From Pseudoxanthomonas kaohsiungensis (GTDB lineage Bacteria; Pseudomonadota; Gammaproteobacteria; Xanthomonadales; Xanthomonadaceae), in contig NZ_PDWO01000011.1 of the NCBI RefSeq assembly GCF_010211765.1, positions 1-64,000 of the forward strand: a stretch of 64,000 bases of DNA, written 5' to 3'. Position 1 is the stretch's first letter. Every line of letters begins with the position of its first letter. This document shows positions 15-40,988 of the stretch, in pieces. Position numbers and translations under genes: made by a program. Under the pieces are notes generated by a model. The model was given only the letters and a program-made list of their open reading frames with translations. It did no database searches and was not told the DNA's origin.

Positions 15-1238
15 TCACCAGGTGAACTCCTCTTCACTGACGGGCTGCGGCGCGCTGGGCGCCATTGGGACGGGGATGACGGGCGGGGCGGACAGGGTAG
101 CGGTTGCGCGGCGCTTTTCCAGCGGCCGCGGTCGCGGTTTGGGCGGGTCGGGGGGCACCAGTTCAGCGGTGCGCCGGCGCGGTTTGCGCGGCGCCCGCGG
201 CCGGACCTCGGACAGCAGGGTGGCCAGCATGGCCGCATCGATGTTCCCGCCCGACACCACCGCGCACTTGCGCTTGCCGGCGACGCGGCGGCCGGCGGCC
301 AGGGCCAGGGCGCCGGCGCCCTCGGCGATCAGGTTCTCCTCCAGCGCCAGCCGGACCAGGGTCTCGCGCAGCTCGGCCTCGCGGACGATCACCACGTCGT
401 CCAGCAGGCGCGCGCAGAGCCGGCGGGTGAGCAGGCCGGGCACCTTGACCCGCACGCCGTCGGCCAGGGTGCGCGCCGGATCGATCGCGGCGGTGTCGCC
501 CTTGATCGCGCGGGCCATCGAATCCACCCCTTCGACCTGGGCGCCGACCACGCGCACGCCCTGCGACTTCAGCGCCAGGGCCACGCCCGAGGCCAGACCG
601 CCGCCGCCGATCGGGACGATGACCACGTCCGGCGTGTGCGGGGCGATCTCGATGCCGATGGTGCCCTGGCCGGCGATCACGTCCGGATCGTCGAACGCGG
701 ACAGGAAGCGGTAGTCGTTCTGCTCGGCCAGCTGCCGGGCGAAGGCATAGGCCTCGTCGTAGCTGTCGCCGTGCTGGCGCACGGTGGCGCCCCAGTGGGC
801 CACGCCGGCGATCTTCGTCTGCGGCGCGCCGTGCGGCATCACCGTGATCGCCTGCACGCCCAGCCGGTACGCGGCCCAGGCCACGCCCTGGGCGTGGTTG
901 CCGGCCGAGGCGCAGATCACCGGGCGGTGGTCGCCGCGTTCGCGCGCCGCCAGCATCGCATTGAGGGCGCCGCGCACCTTGTACGAGCCGGTGCGCTGCA
1001 GGTTCTCCAGCTTCAGCATCACGCCGAAGCGTTCGGCGTGGTGCATCGGCGTCACCGGCAGGTAGCGGCGCAACCGCGACTGCGCGGCCAGGACGTCGGC
1101 GACGCCGACTTCCGCGGGGTCCGCCCCGGGCCGGATGGCCTGGGCAGCCGCGTTCCCGGCAGCCGCCACGCCGGAGCGACCGACGTCGCCGACGTCGGGC
1201 TCTCCGCTGCTGGCGCTGGCGCGGCCGGTGTCAGGCAT
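15..1238 (-). CDS. ilvA: Threonine dehydratase without ACT regulatory domain
   Basis: PLP-dependent deaminase converting threonine to 2-oxobutanoate, the entry step to isoleucine. The fold-type II core is visible from about residue 45: a KLENLQRTGSYKVRG segment holds the Schiff-base lysine, and the glycine-rich phosphate loop reads PIGGGGLASG. The core ends near residue 340 at a serine/glycine-rich SGGN motif. No C-terminal ACT domain follows. Instead there is a basic, proline-rich tail of about 60 residues (RPRAPRKPRRR onward). It is the last gene seen of the minus-strand ilvC-ilvG-ilvM-ilvA operon, 99 bp after ilvM. The first 40 residues are not conserved and no good ribosome site precedes the ATG, so a downstream GTG start is possible. 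The biosynthetic role is inferred from the operon; a catabolic dehydratase is less likely. Confidence 0.9.
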   Translation of the reverse strand: MPDTGRASASSGEPDVGDVGRSGVAAAGNAAAQAIRPGADPAEVGVADVLAAQSRLRRYLPVTPMHHAERFGVMLKLENLQRTGSYKVRGALNAMLAARERGDHRPVICASAGNHAQGVAWAAYRLGVQAITVMPHGAPQTKIAGVAHWGATVRQHGDSYDEAYAFARQLAEQNDYRFLSAFDDPDVIAGQGTIGIEIAPHTPDVVIVPIGGGGLASGVALALKSQGVRVVGAQVEGVDSMARAIKGDTAAIDPARTLADGVRVKVPGLLTRRLCARLLDDVVIVREAELRETLVRLALEENLIAEGAGALALAAGRRVAGKRKCAVVSGGNIDAAMLATLLSEVRPRAPRKPRRRTAELVPPDPPKPRPRPLEKRRATATLSAPPVIPVPMAPSAPQPVSEEEFTW

Positions 1239-1337: not shown

Positions 1338-1628
1338 TCACGACGCGGCCTCCAGCGGCTGGGCTTCGGCCGGACTCGCCGCCACCGGAGCGGTTTCCAT
1401 CGGGCTTATCTCGACCGACTCGCAGTCGTAGACCTTCTGCAGCTGGCGCTTGAGCGTCTCGGCCGGGCGGCCGCCGTCGACCACCAGCTGCAGGCGCCAG
1501 CGCCCGCCTTCGCCGTCGGAGCCGCCGGCGATGGCATGCGGCGCGAAGCCGCGGCGCTCGGTCATCCCGATCACCCGGACCAGCGCGCCCTCCACGGGCT
1601 TCAGCACCAGGTCAAGCCGGTAACGCAT
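1338..1628 (-). CDS. ilvM: Acetolactate synthase small subunit, ACT type
   Basis: Regulatory subunit (96 residues) of acetohydroxyacid synthase. The N-terminal 75 residues have the ACT pattern: a first strand [28 protein letters not shown], then the alternating strand/helix pattern through LKRQLQKVYDCESVEI. A short Ala/Pro-rich tail follows. The chosen ATG lies inside the end of ilvG, a 17-bp overlap typical of subunit genes that are translationally coupled. The longer upstream reading frame is only the ilvG shadow. The family confers stability and valine feedback on the large subunit; whether valine inhibits this enzyme cannot be read from the sequence. Confidence 0.85.
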   Translation of the reverse strand: MRYRLDLVLKPVEGALVRVIGMTERRGFAPHAIAGGSDGEGGRWRLQLVVDGGRPAETLKRQLQKVYDCESVEISPMETAPVAASPAEAQPLEAAS

Positions 1629-3357
1629 GCGCGGACTCCGCCTTCTGTTCGTTGGGGTTGGACTCCAGCATGGTGCTGTTGGCGGTGTTCGGCGGCACCA
1701 GCGGCCAGACGTTGGCGCGTGCGTCGATCGCCACGTGCAGCAGCCCCGGGCCGGGCGACGCCAGCAGCGCGGCCAGCGCATCGTCGACCTCGGCGCGCTT
1801 CTCGATGCGGGTGGCGGGGATCCCGCACACCCGCGCCAGCGCGGCGAAGTCCGGGTTGTCGGACAGGTCGATCTCGCTGTAACGCTTGTCGAAGAACAGC
1901 TCCTGCCACTGCCGGACCATCCCCAGCGAGCTGTTGTCCAGCAGGATCATCTTCACCGGCAGCTTGCAGCGGGCCACGGTGACCAGCTCCTGCACGTTCA
2001 TCATGAAGCTGCCGTCGCCGGAGACCAGCACCACCGGGCGCTCCGGGCAGGCGAACTGGGCGCCCATCGCCGCCGGCAGGCCGAAGCCCATCGTGCCCAG
2101 CGCACCGGAGGTGAGGTGGTTGCGCGGATGGCTGAAGCGGCAATGCTGGGCGACCCACATCTGGTGCTGGCCGACGTCGCAGGCGATCACCGCATCGGGC
2201 ACCAGTTCGCTGACGCGCTTGAGCAGGGCCGGGGCATAGATGTCCTGGCCCGGCGCGTCGTAGCGGGCGGAATGGCGTTCGCGGTTCTTGGCGCAACGCA
2301 GGCGCCATTCGTCCTGGGCTCGGTTGGCGGTGGCCTTGCGCGCACCGGAGGCGAGCGTCCGCAGGCCGGCGGCGACGTCCCCGGGCAGGGCGATGTCGGC
2401 GGTGCGCAGCTTGGAGATCTCGTAGGCGTCCGCGTCCAGGTGGATGACGCGGGCGAATGGCGCGAACTCGGCCAGCTTGCCGGTGGCGCGGTCGTCGAAG
2501 CGGGCGCCGACCACCACCAGCAGGTCCGACTCCTGCACGGCGATGTTCGCCGCGCGCGTGCCGTGCATGCCCAGCATGCCCAGGAAATGCGGGTGGTTGC
2601 CGGGCAGCGCACCCAGGCCGCGCAGGGTCAGCACGGTCGGGATGCGGGTGGCCTCGACGAACTGGCGGAACTCTTCCACCGCTTCGCCCAGGGCGATGCC
2701 GCCGCCGCCGTAAACCACGGGCTTCTCGGCGCAGGCGATCGCGGCGATGGCCTCGGCCAGCGCCGCGTCGGCCGGCGCCGGCTCGCGCGCCACCTCGGCC
2801 GGCACGTGCGCCGGCAGGTGTGCGGCGCTTCCCACCTGCACGTCCTTGGGCAGGTCGATCAGCACCGGCCCGGGCCGGCCCTCGCGGGCCAGGCGGAAGG
2901 CTTCGGCCAGCACGTGCGGCAGGTCGTCGACCTTCCGCACCAGGAAGCTGTGCTTGACGATGGGCAGGGTCATGCCGAACACGTCCAGCTCCTGGAACGC
3001 ATCGGTGCCCAGCAGCGGCGTGGCGACCTGGCCGGTGATGCAGACCATCGGCACCGAGTCCAGCAGCCCGTCGGCGATGCCCGTCACCAGGTTCGACGCG
3101 CCGGGGCCGGAGGTGGCCACGCACACGCCGACCTTGCCGCTGGCGCGCGCATAGCCATTGGCGGCCAGCGCCGCGCCCTGTTCGTGGCGGACCAGGACGT
3201 GCTTCAGTCCCGAGTCCACGAGCGCATCGTAGAACGGCATGATCGCGCCGCCCGGATAGCCGAAGATCGTGTCCACCCCCTCGGCTTCCAGCGCATGCGC
3301 GACCCAGGCCGCGCCATTGCGCAGCCCGGCCGCCGCAGTGGGGGAGGTCGCGTTCAT
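1612..3357 (-). CDS. ilvG: Acetolactate synthase large subunit
   Basis: Thiamine-diphosphate enzyme (581 residues) condensing two pyruvates to acetolactate, or pyruvate with 2-oxobutanoate, in valine, leucine and isoleucine synthesis. The PYR domain carries the catalytic glutamate E59 in RHEQGA. The central domain follows, and the C-terminal ThDP domain has the GDGSFMMN metal/diphosphate motif near residue 450. Length matches catalytic AHAS subunits. The start overlaps the ilvC stop by 4 bp (ATGA) and the end overlaps ilvM by 17 bp, so the three genes are tightly coupled. The operon is controlled by the upstream attenuator. Confidence 0.95.
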
Positions 3358-4382
3358 GCGGCGGCGGTCCTCTTCGCGTTGGCGTCATCGGTATCGGGCT
3401 GGCCGGCGTTGGCCTGCAGCCAGACCATCTTCGCGCGCAGCTCGCGGCCGACCTTCTCGATCGGATGGTCCTTGTCGGCCTGCTGGAACTTGCGGTAGTT
3501 CGGCAGGCCGGCGTCGTACTCGGCCTGCCAGTTGCGGGTGAAGGTGCCGTTCTGGATGTCGGTCAGCACGTCCTTCATCCGCGCCTTGACCGAGGCGTCG
3601 ATCACCCGCGGGCCGCTGACGAAGTCGCCGTACTGCGCGGTCTCGGAGACGAACTCCAGCATGCGGGTGATGCCGCCTTCGTAGAACAGGTCGACGATCA
3701 GCTTCAGCTCGTGCAGGACCTCGTAGTAGGCGATCTCCGGCTGGTAGCCCGCCTCGACCAGCGTCTCGAAGCCGGCCTGGACCAGCGAGGACGCGCCGCC
3801 GCACAGCACGGCCTGCTCGCCGAACAGGTCGGTCTCGGTCTCTTCCTTGAAGGTGGTCCTGATGATGTTGGCGCGCGCGCCGCCCAGGCCGCCGGCATAG
3901 GCCAGGGCCAGCTGCTCGGCCTTGCTGGACTTGTCCTGGTAGACGGCGTAGATGCACGGCACGCCGCGGCCGATCTCGTACTCGCGGCGGACCAGCGCAC
4001 CCGGGCCCTTCGGCGCGACCAGGACCACGTCCAGGTCATCGCGCGGGCTGATCATGCCGAAGTGCACGTTGAGGCCGTGCGCGAACAGCAGGCAGGCGCC
4101 GGGCTTCATGTTCGGCGCCAGCACGTCCTCGTAGAGCTTCTTCTGGACCATGTCCGGGGTCAGCACCGCGACCAGGTCGGCGTCCTTGACCGCGTCGGCC
4201 GGCGACTTGACCACGAAGCCGTCGGCCTGGGCCTTGGCTTCGGTCGGGCCGCCCGGACGCAGGCCGACGACCACGTCGAACCCGGAGTCGCGCAGGTTCA
4301 GCGCATGCGCGCGTCCCTGGCTGCCGTAGCCGACGATCGCGACGCTCTTGATGGGAGCGTGGGAGGAGGTGCTGCTGGTCAT
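3354..4382 (-). CDS. ilvC: Ketol-acid reductoisomerase, class I
   Basis: NADPH-dependent isomeroreductase (342 residues) acting on acetolactate and acetohydroxybutyrate. The Rossmann motif GYGSQG is at residues 18-23. The C-terminal knotted domain has the metal/substrate segment [12 protein letters not shown] and [13 protein letters not shown]. The short length places it in class I. The N-terminus lacks the YYDxDAD segment that usually precedes the Rossmann fold. I chose ATG 4382 because a longer in-frame start at 4493 would begin inside the attenuator hairpin. First structural gene of ilvCGM-ilvA. Confidence 0.93.
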
Positions 4383-4491
4383 GGCGTGGTCCTGTGCGGT
4401 TGCGTGGAGGTGATGGTGGAAGCGAAGGGGGTGGAATGTGCCGTAAACGATTTGTTTCTGCTGATAATTTCCGGCCGCCGTGACGGCCAAC

Positions 4492-4520
4492 AAAAAACCC
4501 CGCGCCTTTCGGTGCGGGGT
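4492..4520 (-). terminator. Intrinsic terminator of the ilv attenuator
   Basis: Read on the minus strand, ACCCCGC (4520-4514) pairs with GCGGGGT (4503-4497), closing a loop with an inner CC-GAAA-GG helix and followed by a run of six T. It lies between the leader peptide stop (4548) and ilvC (4382), so termination here would stop transcription before the structural genes. The 5' arm also belongs to the alternative antiterminator pairing. Confidence 0.85.
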
Positions 4521-4571
4521 TTTGCGAATCTGGCGTGGTGTTTCTGCTTACGCGCCGGTTCGTCCCGCACC
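4511..4571 (-). promoter_or_regulatory. Antiterminator pairing of the ilv attenuator
   Basis: On the minus strand GGTGCGGG (4571-4564), inside the distal leader-peptide codons, is perfectly complementary to CCCGCACC (4518-4511), the 5' arm of the terminator. The two pairings are mutually exclusive. A ribosome stalled on the Leu/Val/Ile codons (4604-4584) leaves 4571-4564 free and favours antitermination. A ribosome that reaches the stop codon covers it and lets the terminator form. Seen directly as complementarity; the mechanism is inferred from enterobacterial ilv and trp attenuators. Confidence 0.75.
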
Positions 4572-4664
4572 TGTTGGCGAGGTAATAAGGACGAGGACGA
4601 CGAGCGACGCCGCGCCGCGGGGCGCGTTGCGGTCGTGGGTCGAGGGCGTGTGGCGATGCAGCAT
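4548..4664 (-). CDS. ilv operon leader peptide (38 residues)
   Basis: Short reading frame ahead of the terminator, starting ATG CTG CAT and ending in TAA. Residues 21-27 read LVVLVLI (codons CTC GTC GTC CTC GTC CTT ATT), an uninterrupted run of the three branched-chain amino acids whose synthesis the operon serves. The rest is rich in Ala, Arg, Thr, Pro and Gly. No Shine-Dalgarno sequence precedes the ATG, and the best -35 hexamer (TTGACA, 4701-4696) places transcription start within a few bases of it, so it may be translated from a nearly leaderless RNA. It would act as a sensor of charged Leu/Val/Ile tRNA, not as a functional protein. Confidence 0.8.
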
Positions 4665-4672
4665 GGAACGGA

Positions 4673-4701
4673 GGAAAGCACGCCCGTTCGCGGCTTGTCA
4701 A
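4673..4701 (-). promoter_or_regulatory. Candidate promoter of the ilv leader
   Basis: Minus-strand TTGACA (4701-4696), then 17 bp, then a weak -10 CTTTCC (4678-4673) preceded by TG. The predicted start point near 4666 is just upstream of the leader ATG at 4664. The -35 is a consensus match; the -10 is poor, so position is uncertain. Confidence 0.4.
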
Positions 4702-4723
4702 GCGATCGTAGGGACGCGCTACT

Positions 4724-4737
4724 GTTGCAGTTGCAAC
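4724..4737. promoter_or_regulatory. Dyad GTTGCA-gt-TGCAAC between ilvC and ilvD
   Basis: A perfect 6+6 bp dyad with a 2-bp centre lies upstream of the candidate ilv promoter and between the divergent ilvC and ilvD transcription units. It could be an operator. The resemblance to TTGCAA-type IlvY sites of enterobacteria is suggestive only; no ilvY gene is in the window. Confidence 0.3.
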
Positions 4738-4883
4738 CGTGGACATGGCCCGCGCACGCCGCACAATCGAACACGATTCGTGCCGCTTCCTGCACCGGAT
4801 TCCACGCCGTCCCGACCGCGCGCCCGCAGGTGCGTGGCTTTCCCTCCACCCACGCGCCAGCGTCCGCCAGCGTTCTTCCGACC

Positions 4884-6725
4884 ATGCCCGACTACCGTTC
4901 CAGGACTTCCACCCACGGCCGCAACATGGCCGGCGCGCGCGCGTTGTGGCGCGCCACCGGCATGAAGGACGACGATTTCCACAAGCCGATCGTCGCCATC
5001 GCCAACTCGTTCACCCAGTTCGTGCCCGGCCACGTCCACCTCAAGGACCTCGGCCAGCTGGTCGCGCGCGAGATCGAGCGGGTCGGCGGCGTGGCCAAGG
5101 AATTCGACACAATCGCGGTGGACGACGGCATCGCCATGGGCCATGACGGCATGCTGTATTCGCTGCCCAGCCGCGAGCTGATCGCCGACTCGGTCGAGTA
5201 CATGGTCAACGCGCACTGCGCCGACGCGCTGGTGTGCATTTCAAACTGCGACAAGATCACCCCCGGCATGCTGATGGCCGCGCTGCGGCTGAACATCCCC
5301 ACGGTGTTCGTCTCCGGCGGGCCGATGGAGGCGGGCAAGACACGCCTGGCCGACCACAAGCTCGACCTGATCGACGCAATGGTGATGGCCGCCGACCCGA
5401 ACGCCAGCGACGAGCAGGTCGCCGCGGTCGAGCGCAGCGCGTGCCCGACCTGCGGTTCGTGCTCGGGCATGTTCACCGCCAATTCGATGAACTGCCTGAC
5501 CGAGGCGCTGGGCCTGTCGCTGCCGGGCAACGGCACCGTGCTGGCCACCCATGCCGACCGCGAGGCGCTGTTCAAGCGCGCCGGCGTGACCGCGGTGGAA
5601 CTGTGCCATCGCTGGTACGGCGCGGAGGACGCCAGCGCGCTGCCGCGCGGCATCGCCACGTTCGCCGCGTTCGAGAACGCGATGACGCTGGACATCGCGA
5701 TGGGCGGCTCGACCAACACCATCCTGCACCTGCTGGCCGCCGCGCAGGAGGGCGAGGTCCCGTTCGGCATGCGCGACATCGACCGGCTGTCGAAGCGCGT
5801 GCCGCAACTGTGCAAGGTGGCGCCGAACACGCAGAAGTACCACATCGAAGACGTGCACCGCGCCGGCGGGATCATGGCGATCCTGGCCGAGCTGGCGCGC
5901 GGCGGACTGCTCGACACCTCGGTGCCGACCGTGCACGCGAAGACCCTGGGCGAGGCGATCGCCGCCTGGGACGTCACCGCCACCGCCGACGAGGCCGTGC
6001 ACACGTTCTACAAGGCCGGTCCGGCCGGGATCCCGACCCAGGTCGCCTTCAGCCAGGCCACGCGCTGGCCGTCGCTGGATACGGATCGCGCCGAAGGCTG
6101 CATCCGCGACATGGCCCATGCGTTCTCGAAGGAGGGCGGCCTGGCCGTGCTCCACGGCAACATCGCCGTCGACGGCTGCGTGGTGAAGACCGCCGGCGTG
6201 GACGAATCGATCCACGTGTTCGAGGGCAACGCGCGCGTGTACGAAAGCCAGGACGCGGCCGTGAAGGGCATCCTCGGCGACGAGGTGCAGGCCGGCGACG
6301 TGGTGGTGATCCGCTACGAAGGTCCCAAGGGCGGGCCGGGCATGCAGGAAATGCTGTATCCGACCAGCTACCTCAAGTCCAAGGGCCTGGGCAAGCAATG
6401 CGCGCTGCTGACCGACGGCCGTTTCTCCGGCGGCACCTCGGGGCTGTCGATCGGCCACGCCTCGCCCGAGGCGGCGGCCGGCGGGGCGATCGGCCTGGTC
6501 CGCAACGGCGACCGGATCCGGATCGACATCCCGGCGCGCACGATCGACCTGCTGGTGTCCGAGGCGGAACTGGCGGCGCGCCGCGCCGCGCAGGACGCGA
6601 AGGGCTGGAAGCCGGCCGAGCCGCGTCCGCGCAAGGTCAGCACCGCACTGAAGGCCTACGCCCTGCTGGCCACCAGCGCCGACAAGGGAGCGGTGCGCGA
6701 CAAGGCGCTGCTCGACGGCGTGTGA
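4884..6725 (+). CDS. ilvD: Dihydroxy-acid dehydratase
   Basis: Iron-sulfur dehydratase (613 residues, like E. coli IlvD) forming the 2-oxo acids that precede valine and isoleucine. The cluster-binding motifs are visible: NCDK at residues 121-124 and [11 protein letters not shown] at 187-197. The C-terminal segment [15 protein letters not shown] is typical of the IlvD/Edd family. The ATG at 4884 gives the family N-terminus [19 protein letters not shown]; the long upstream extension crosses the regulatory region and is rejected. Transcribed divergently from ilvCGM-ilvA. Its stop overlaps the next gene by 4 bp (GTGA). Confidence 0.95.
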
Positions 6726-13831: not shown

Positions 13832-13838
13832 CGTCGCC

Positions 13839-15910
<2,072 letters not shown>

Positions 15911-40804: not shown

Positions 40805-40988
40805 GCATTCTCCACCATGCCGATGCGGCGAAACGACCTTGAACCCGAGGTCCAAGTGGGAACGCTAGGAAACCATCGGGCTTTCCGCTACGTGGCGGAC
40901 ATGCACACCCGGCGTCGTCGCATCCCCGGTGTCGTTTTTAAGGGACAAGGCGAATGTTTTGCCAGCTGTCGAACACGGCAGAGAACGC
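40805..40988 (-). ncRNA. ssrS: 6S RNA
   Basis: About 184 nt between zapA and fau, as in E. coli. The ends pair: GCGTTCTC (40988-40981) with GAGAATGC (40812-40805), extended by TGCCG (40980-40976) with CGGCA. The 3' part carries CTTGGACCTCGGGTTCAAGG, close to the CTTGAACCAAGGGTTCAAGG of E. coli 6S RNA. A TATAAT -10 lies 6 bp upstream of the 5' end. It sequesters sigma-70 RNA polymerase by mimicking an open promoter. End positions are approximate. Confidence 0.85.

Follow-up and report, generated by a model that had tools for sequence, protein, structure and literature searches.

The window, that is, the whole 64,000-nucleotide stretch of DNA analyzed here, comes from a Pseudoxanthomonas-like genome and carries on its minus strand a group of genes for branched-chain amino acid biosynthesis. 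In the direction of transcription, these are ilvC (3354..4382; NF004017 and TIGR00465 above cut-off), the closest named ilvC found being that of Pseudoxanthomonas daejeonensis (93%), ilvG, encoding the acetolactate synthase 2 catalytic subunit (1612..3357; NF006524 above cut-off), a probable ilvM for the small subunit (1338..1628) and a threonine dehydratase gene of the ilvA/tdcB type (15..1238; NF006455 above cut-off). The ilvM assignment relies on inspection of the sequence by eye and on its position between ilvG and ilvA; its start is uncertain, and the shorter stretch 1338-1601 gave no NCBIfam match. An ilvD gene (4893-6725; NCBIfam NF009103) is divergent from the ilvC operon.

At the head of this cognate operon, in which ilvC, ilvG and the threonine dehydratase gene are named by NCBIfam, lies a leader on the minus strand. 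It contains an ORF of 38 aa plus a stop codon (4548..4664; TAA at 4548-4550), with corresponding ORFs in relatives, which harbors the run LVVLVLI encoded by CTC GTC GTC CTC GTC CTT ATT (4584..4604). A −35 box, TTGACA (4696..4701), is found 31 nt 5′ of the leader ATG and is separated by an 18-nt spacer from an extended −10-like element, TGCTTTCCT (4672..4680), with the ATG 7 nt further on. Since the preceding stop codon sits inside TTGACA, there is no in-frame ATG, GTG or TTG other than the leader ATG between that stop codon and the codon run. Strand 1 (4591..4600), within the run, would be able to pair with 4568-4560 when no ribosome is stalled there. Strand 2, GGTGCGGG (4564..4571), is the 5′ arm of the predicted antiterminator and forms a perfect 8-bp pairing with strand 3, CCCGCACC (4511..4518), both strands being assigned on pairing counts in relatives. 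Strand 3 is common to the antiterminator and to an intrinsic terminator, CCCCGCACC-GAAA-GGCGCGGGG at 4519-4498, in which strand 4, GGCGCGGGG (4498..4506), pairs with 4519-4511, leaving one A.C mismatch in the stem, and which is followed by a T6 tract (4492..4497). The initial annotation had listed the frame with its seven Leu/Val/Ile codons at 4664-4548, the hairpin and T6 terminator at 4520-4492 and the competing 8-bp pairing between 4571-4564 and 4518-4511; direct reading of the sequence finds all of them in place.

The window leader folds better than shuffled sequences (z = −2.27). A simple scan of the window reported neither the leader terminator nor the leader promoter, the former probably because the mismatch leaves a loop of 10 nt while the scan was limited to 8. 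At the gathering score, no Rfam family was found at the leader, and a permissive Rfam scan of 4300-4800 returned sub-threshold matches only; Leu_leader (RF00512) reached 17.4 bits at the leader, for a gathering cut-off of 50. The only Rfam matches in the window are a 6S RNA (40805-40987, minus strand) and a TPP riboswitch (13834-13934, plus strand), both ordinary.

A search of 198 family genomes found IlvC in 139, the one containing the window among them, and we read the DNA around these matches. A short ORF with a Leu/Val/Ile run precedes ilvC in 68 loci, namely, the window (L001, left out of the relatives), 59 of 138 family-genome loci and 8 of 24 named-species loci; some species were drawn twice in this set, which yields 62 distinct leaders in the codon count. 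One further locus, L189, was dropped because its run was a false one inside a longer ORF (69 loci before removal). In the 68 loci, no ilvD in the same direction occurs in the upstream stretch read, and ilvG follows ilvC in all of them except L107. The other 79 family-genome loci have a same-direction ilvD just upstream of ilvC, and 60 of these were fetched: the leader is present ahead of ilvD in 58, while L227 and L277 show none in the stretch ahead of ilvD. Five named-species loci (L008, L010, L012, L023 and L024) have the leader too, and ten (L013-L016, L018-L022 and L025) have none in the upstream stretch read; nine of these ten, all but L025, we take from their names to be Rhodanobacteraceae. 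We thus rejected the statement that over half of the family genomes are without a leader, given that in those loci ilvD precedes ilvC and the leader lies ahead of ilvD. The results show that the codon run sought in relatives is kept, and that the leader stands either before ilvC or before an upstream ilvD, so that the attenuator keeps its leading position whichever gene comes first in the operon. This putative device is independent of ilvC, a point that goes beyond the initial annotation, as does the strong bias of its codon choice described below.

As a chance check, we searched for runs of at least five Leu/Val/Ile codons in the 470 nt upstream of ilvC: such runs occur on the sense strand in 62 of 65 distinct leader loci (not an independent count, because the 65 loci had been picked for having a run), on the opposite strand in 4 of 65 and in 31 of 1300 Markov resamples. 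We also observed that two ilvD genes are in use, one being the divergent gene of the window (NF009103), to which the ilvD genes heading operons are mostly 32-40% identical. Loss of the operon-heading ilvD may have brought the leader beside ilvC.

The position of the promoter relative to the ORF varies little among these leaders. When start codons were picked independently of the promoter and one mismatch at most was allowed, 122 of 128 distinct family sequences had TTGACA 29-32 nt ahead of the leader ATG, the box being exact in 120. At the same loci, this spacing is found for 68 of 5896 other ATGs (~1%) and for 30 of 6072 random positions. Five of the six exceptions (L008, L097, L107, L252 and L278) have a later in-frame ATG 30-31 nt from an exact TTGACA and are explained by the start rule, which took an upstream in-frame ATG; the sixth is at 33 nt. 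SD-like 4-mers were found in 1 of 127 leaders, compared with 371 of 3930 random positions. Among 152 distinct sequences with a −35 box at this spacing (63 ilvC-type, 61 ilvD-type and 28 from other families), position −1 of the ATG is occupied by C in 135 cases and by T in 9, and a pyrimidine is usual before a purine transcription start. Given that sigma-70 promoters start transcription ~30 nt after the −35 box, the observed spacing puts +1 on the first base of the ATG or one to two bases 5′ of it. The spacing and the scarcity of SD motifs together thus suggest that transcription should start at the AUG or within ~2 bases of it, in agreement with the initial annotation, which had described the leader ATG as lying almost at the predicted +1 and having no ribosome site. 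The start region of the ORF, often encoding MLHRHT or MTQRNN, is CA-rich, a feature said to aid leaderless translation.

Conservation 5′ of TTGACA is low overall, with patches of 0.5-1.0 bits; conserved patches are found, for example, at −16 to −14 and −6 to −3 in the ilvD type and at the two bases before the −35 box in the ilvC type. As for the −10 element, it matches TATAAT weakly, with a TG and a T-rich hexamer moderately conserved in the family. A perfect TTGACA paired with a very poor T/C-rich −10 (TTTCCT, TTATCT or TTCTCT) after TG is a common arrangement in the family; by eye, several leaders of other families have TAxxxT in place of the T/C-rich −10. The distance of the −10 element from the consensus, and the absence of any promoter on the minus strand from the output of the scan, would favor a real attenuator with an ordinary 5′ UTR, in which the transcript begins at a more upstream site and ribosome entry relies on weak or SD-independent binding. 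We consider this unlikely in view of the promoter spacing, which sets the leader ATG apart from the other ATGs of the same loci, of the near absence of SD-like motifs, of the poor overall conservation 5′ of TTGACA and of the C at −1, which fits a start at a pyrimidine/A step; furthermore, in the window, the stop codon within TTGACA leaves no alternative in-frame ATG, GTG or TTG.

We then compared codon usage in the run with that of ilvC itself. In the 62 distinct ilvC-type leaders, Leu is encoded by CTC (56.9%), CTT (41.7%) and CTG (0.9%), the values for ilvC of 145 relatives being 16.0% for CTC, 1.1% for CTT and 79.3% for CTG. For Val, the leader runs use GTA (41.5%), GTC (39.3%) and GTG (17.8%), and ilvC of the 145 relatives uses GTC at 42.1% and GTA at 2.2%. 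The Ile codon ATT accounts for 96.2% in the ilvC-type runs vs. 2.3% in ilvC of these relatives. Moreover, CTT ATT closes the run in 58 of 62 ilvC-type and 54 of 62 ilvD-type leaders (112 of 124 distinct leaders). The leader run makes use of codons that are rare in these genomes, namely, CTT, ATT and GTA; the run of the window uses CTC, GTC, CTT and ATT, with GTA absent. By the usual wobble rules, CTT and CTC share one tRNA, as do ATT and ATC, so that decoding speed or RNA structure may matter beside tRNA charging; constraints of RNA structure could also account for part of the codon bias. For other attenuators, both theory and experiment are reported to show that sensitivity depends on which synonymous control codon is used (PMC1183508).

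The two competing hairpins were analyzed in alignments by testing pairs against 500 shuffles, a cell being one pair in one aligned sequence and a two-sided change one that alters both bases. In a mixed alignment of both leader types (38 sequences), the antiterminator is paired in 96.1% of cells and shows 13 two-sided changes, all at one pair, compared with a shuffled mean of 5.1 (0 of 500 shuffles). Of five measures taken on this alignment, three are above every one of the 500 shuffles and the other two, pairs with a two-sided change and further pair types, are not; the two-sided changes largely track the two leader types and may stem from few events. Within 56 ilvC-type leaders, no antiterminator measure rises above the shuffles because the core is invariant. 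The terminator shows 18 two-sided changes over four pairs in the 38 sequences, for a shuffled mean of 8.5 (0 of 500 shuffles), and 14 for a shuffled mean of 3.0 within the 56 ilvC-type leaders.

We also counted pairs at the bases preceding the GCGGG core, in 120 of 123 distinct leaders that are in register (L241, L257 and L275, without the core in register, were left out) and that are related, such that the counts are not independent events. At the base adjoining the core, 58 of 61 distinct ilvC-type leaders keep the antiterminator pair and 21 the terminator pair, the corresponding numbers for 59 ilvD-type leaders being 53 and 55. Strand 2 at this position thus seems to be kept for pairing with strand 3, and its retention does not look like a side effect of the terminator. 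One base further out, the antiterminator and terminator pairs are formed in 56 and 59 of the 61 ilvC-type leaders and in 59 and 56 of the 59 ilvD-type leaders; at the third base, they are formed in 49 and 56 of the 61, and in 31 and 57 of the 59, showing that ilvD-type leaders have a weak outer antiterminator pair. The stem conservation asked for in relatives is thus found, with a weaker outer edge in one leader type, and together with the codon run it supports the attenuator reading of the ilvC leader.

Strand 1:2 pairing is found in 98.7% of cells (56 sequences), with no two-sided change and all 500 shuffles scoring equal, so this protector pairing is compatible with the sequences but unproven. 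The RNA separating strand 2 from strand 3 is more stably folded than its shuffled versions, with a mean z of −1.59 (50 sequences) and −1.47 (58 sequences); single-sequence shuffling was used here, given that no inner antiterminator stem was resolved in the MAFFT alignments. This folding surplus suggests that the antiterminator is a composite hairpin, longer than the 8-bp pairing of the initial annotation. In the four leaders for which folding was computed, the antiterminator is the minimum-energy fold before strand 4 exists (four of four), and the terminator is the minimum-energy fold of the RNA left free when a ribosome sits on the stop codon. With the full RNA past a stalled ribosome, the terminator beats the antiterminator in three of four (−31.4 vs. 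−27.3 kcal/mol in the window). In view of this, antitermination would have to be kinetic.

Based on these features, the leader is very probably a ribosome-mediated transcription attenuator that acts on the ilvC-ilvG-ilvM-ilvA operon through a leaderless leader peptide, as predicted from sequence and its conservation. RNA polymerase would begin the transcript with the leader AUG itself or no more than about two bases away, and a ribosome would initiate on the 5′ AUG without a Shine-Dalgarno site. When Leu-, Val- or Ile-tRNA is short, the ribosome would stall in the CTC/GTC/CTT/ATT run, leaving strand 2 (4571-4564) to pair with strand 3 (4518-4511), such that the terminator would be blocked and the operon transcribed. 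When charged tRNA is plentiful, the ribosome would reach the stop codon, which lies 18 nt beyond the start of the GCGGG core, and cover part of strand 2; strand 3 would then pair with strand 4, and transcription would end at the T tract. The distance of 18 nt from core start to stop codon is found in 105 of 128 parsed leaders (L132, L203 and L008 being outside the strand parser's count of 128).

An alternative would be a terminator upstream of ilvC that is constitutive or controlled by a factor, with an accidental hydrophobic ORF and no ribosome acting as sensor. The strength and conservation of the terminator are compatible with it, but the codon run survives changes of the first gene and is made of codons avoided in ilvC, and the competing strand 2 is kept beside the core even where the terminator pair is broken, which makes this explanation highly improbable. 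Equally hard to credit is an RNA that binds a metabolite or protein, in the manner of a riboswitch (compare the ilvB-associated ppGpp riboswitches), with the ORF secondary, as the region between strands 2 and 3 does fold better than shuffles but no Rfam family is present here at threshold and conservation is centered on the codon run and strands 2-4.

To follow the putative leaderless attenuator outside the family, we built a covariance model from 38 leaders. The model scores the window site with E = 4.8e-30, the only full-length match listed in its own genome, and gives some match at E <= 0.01 in 107 of 151 genomes of the order, many weak ones covering the terminator part only. Twenty-five genomes outside the family were picked for good model matches, and 29 loci were read. 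An ORF with a Leu/Val/Ile run is present at the match in 29 of 29, with a minimum of four residues (L332 and L334), and TTGAC lies 29-32 nt from an in-frame ATG in 28 of 29, L329 being the exception; because these ATGs were chosen by their TTGAC spacing, this is weaker evidence than the family count. By our own reading, the downstream gene is ilvD in 15 loci, leuA in 10, ilvG in L325 and ilvC in L330, with no gene assigned in L319 and L324. NCBIfam naming outside the family was limited to seven loci and confirms leuA (L309, L312, L314 and L333), ilvG by TIGR00118 (L325), ilvC (L330) and ilvD (L307). Six genomes of another family of the order (f12), which is perhaps Rhodanobacteraceae, have the leader ahead of leuA, confirmed by NCBIfam in three of the six. 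At the level of the class, 19 of 229 genomes matched the model, three of them from the family of the window; four matches from the 16 outside genomes were inspected, and two of these resemble branched-chain leaders (L359, and L363 ahead of acetolactate synthase). One genome, G233, has three branched-chain leaders in ~5.5 kb (C9, around 102291, 107099 and 107574; L319, L335 and L332), two of which are divergent, ahead of ilvD and leuA.

The model also gave a weak match in the genome of the window (G000:C9:24038-24119) that corresponds to a device different from the branched-chain leader. Directly ahead of asnB (NF006949), we found an ORF of 32 aa with eight Asn (MHPFRLANTANCNRNNNAANNRARPMRERDRS) and a terminator, which together form a probable asparagine attenuator (G000:C9:23967-24119, plus strand; L282/L393). 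The Asn-rich ORF of another locus, L339, reads MSIRLATAVNNNRNNLRANNRARPMRDCALGR; in the asparagine leader, a competing strand, GATGCGGG, and the terminator are followed by asnB. A model made from six asnB leaders has matches in 44 of 149 family genomes. Among 30 loci read, all with an asnB sequence, 27 show a leader ORF of 29-33 aa with 4-10 Asn codons, the other three being out of register. All 27 of these 27 leaders have a TAnnnT whose end is 5-8 nt from the ATG on its 5′ side, a spacing by which the asnB leader also looks leaderless. In the literature searched, we found no report of this probable asparagine attenuator. In two other loci (L337 and L338, in G052 and G005), we observed a leader-like ORF ending in YYTTFTWAGSAGSGHV or WITNFTWAHRAGIGHV, with TTGACA 32 nt before the ATG and a terminator; the gene that follows is MarR-like by eye and has no NCBIfam match at 1e-60. 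This leader is possibly an aromatic amino acid sensor.

Attenuation by means of a codon run, a stall geometry and exclusive hairpins is known at branched-chain operons of E. coli (ilvGMEDA, ilvBN and leuABCD), whose leaders, unlike the present one, have an ordinary 5′ UTR and a ribosome site. Leaderless polycysteine ORFs of mycobacteria are reportedly amino-acid-responsive attenuators, by the title of Canestrari et al. 2020; they are likewise short leaderless attenuator ORFs, but sense cysteine and belong to Actinobacteria. The ilv leader of Corynebacterium glutamicum is said, in the title of Morbach et al. 2000, to be without a ribosome binding site. For the C. glutamicum ilvBNC attenuator, a single nucleotide is reported to separate +1 and the start codon of the leader (PMC11857589), and this system resembles ours in its branched-chain leader peptide (IlvL), its terminator and antiterminator and its +1 near the start codon. 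The likeness is one of description. C. glutamicum is an Actinobacterium with a leader of 15 aa ahead of ilvB, whereas the present device belongs to a gammaproteobacterial order, where it precedes ilvC, ilvD, ilvG or leuA operons. In Sinorhizobium meliloti, an Alphaproteobacterium, the 5′ end of the trpL RNA (peTrpL) begins at the ATG of the leader ORF, as stated in part of PMC7298713; it differs in sensing tryptophan and in its 14-aa leader. Leaderless attenuation itself thus has precedents, in Corynebacterium (ilvBNC) and Sinorhizobium (trpL).

Branched-chain leaders are also described, in the sections available of the respective papers, ahead of ilvB in Corynebacterium and other Actinobacteria (PMC10272879, PMC1262725 and PMC13236596) and in Caulobacter (PMC4117421). 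Transcription starts of X. campestris pv. vesicatoria have been mapped by dRNA-seq (Schmidtke et al., cited in PMC3744752); ilv and leader peptides go unmentioned in the main text of this Xanthomonas paper and of PMC3771888. By title or abstract, none of the matches listed reports the leader in relatives of Xanthomonas, an earlier prediction being possible in Vitreschak et al. 2004. What appears to be new here is a predicted leaderless branched-chain attenuator that occurs across several families of one order and is movable between ilvC, ilvD, ilvG and leuA operons.

In textbook attenuation, the ribosome takes a Shine-Dalgarno site in the 5′ UTR before it meets the sensor codons. We lean toward the view that, in the order of Xanthomonas, Stenotrophomonas, Lysobacter and their neighbors, attenuators are leaderless by design, with initiation at a 5′-terminal AUG forming part of the sensor, with one module carried between ilvC, ilvD, ilvG and leuA operons and with the same architecture serving an asparagine sensor at asnB. 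The leader would offer a clean test case for the tuning of attenuation by synonymous codon choice and a natural switch for gene-expression work in these plant-associated and environmental bacteria. If the proposal is true, a start on a bare 5′ AUG would have both the reliability and the speed needed to time a termination decision over ~170 nt of transcription, and amino acid sensing would be tied to conditions that favor leaderless initiation.
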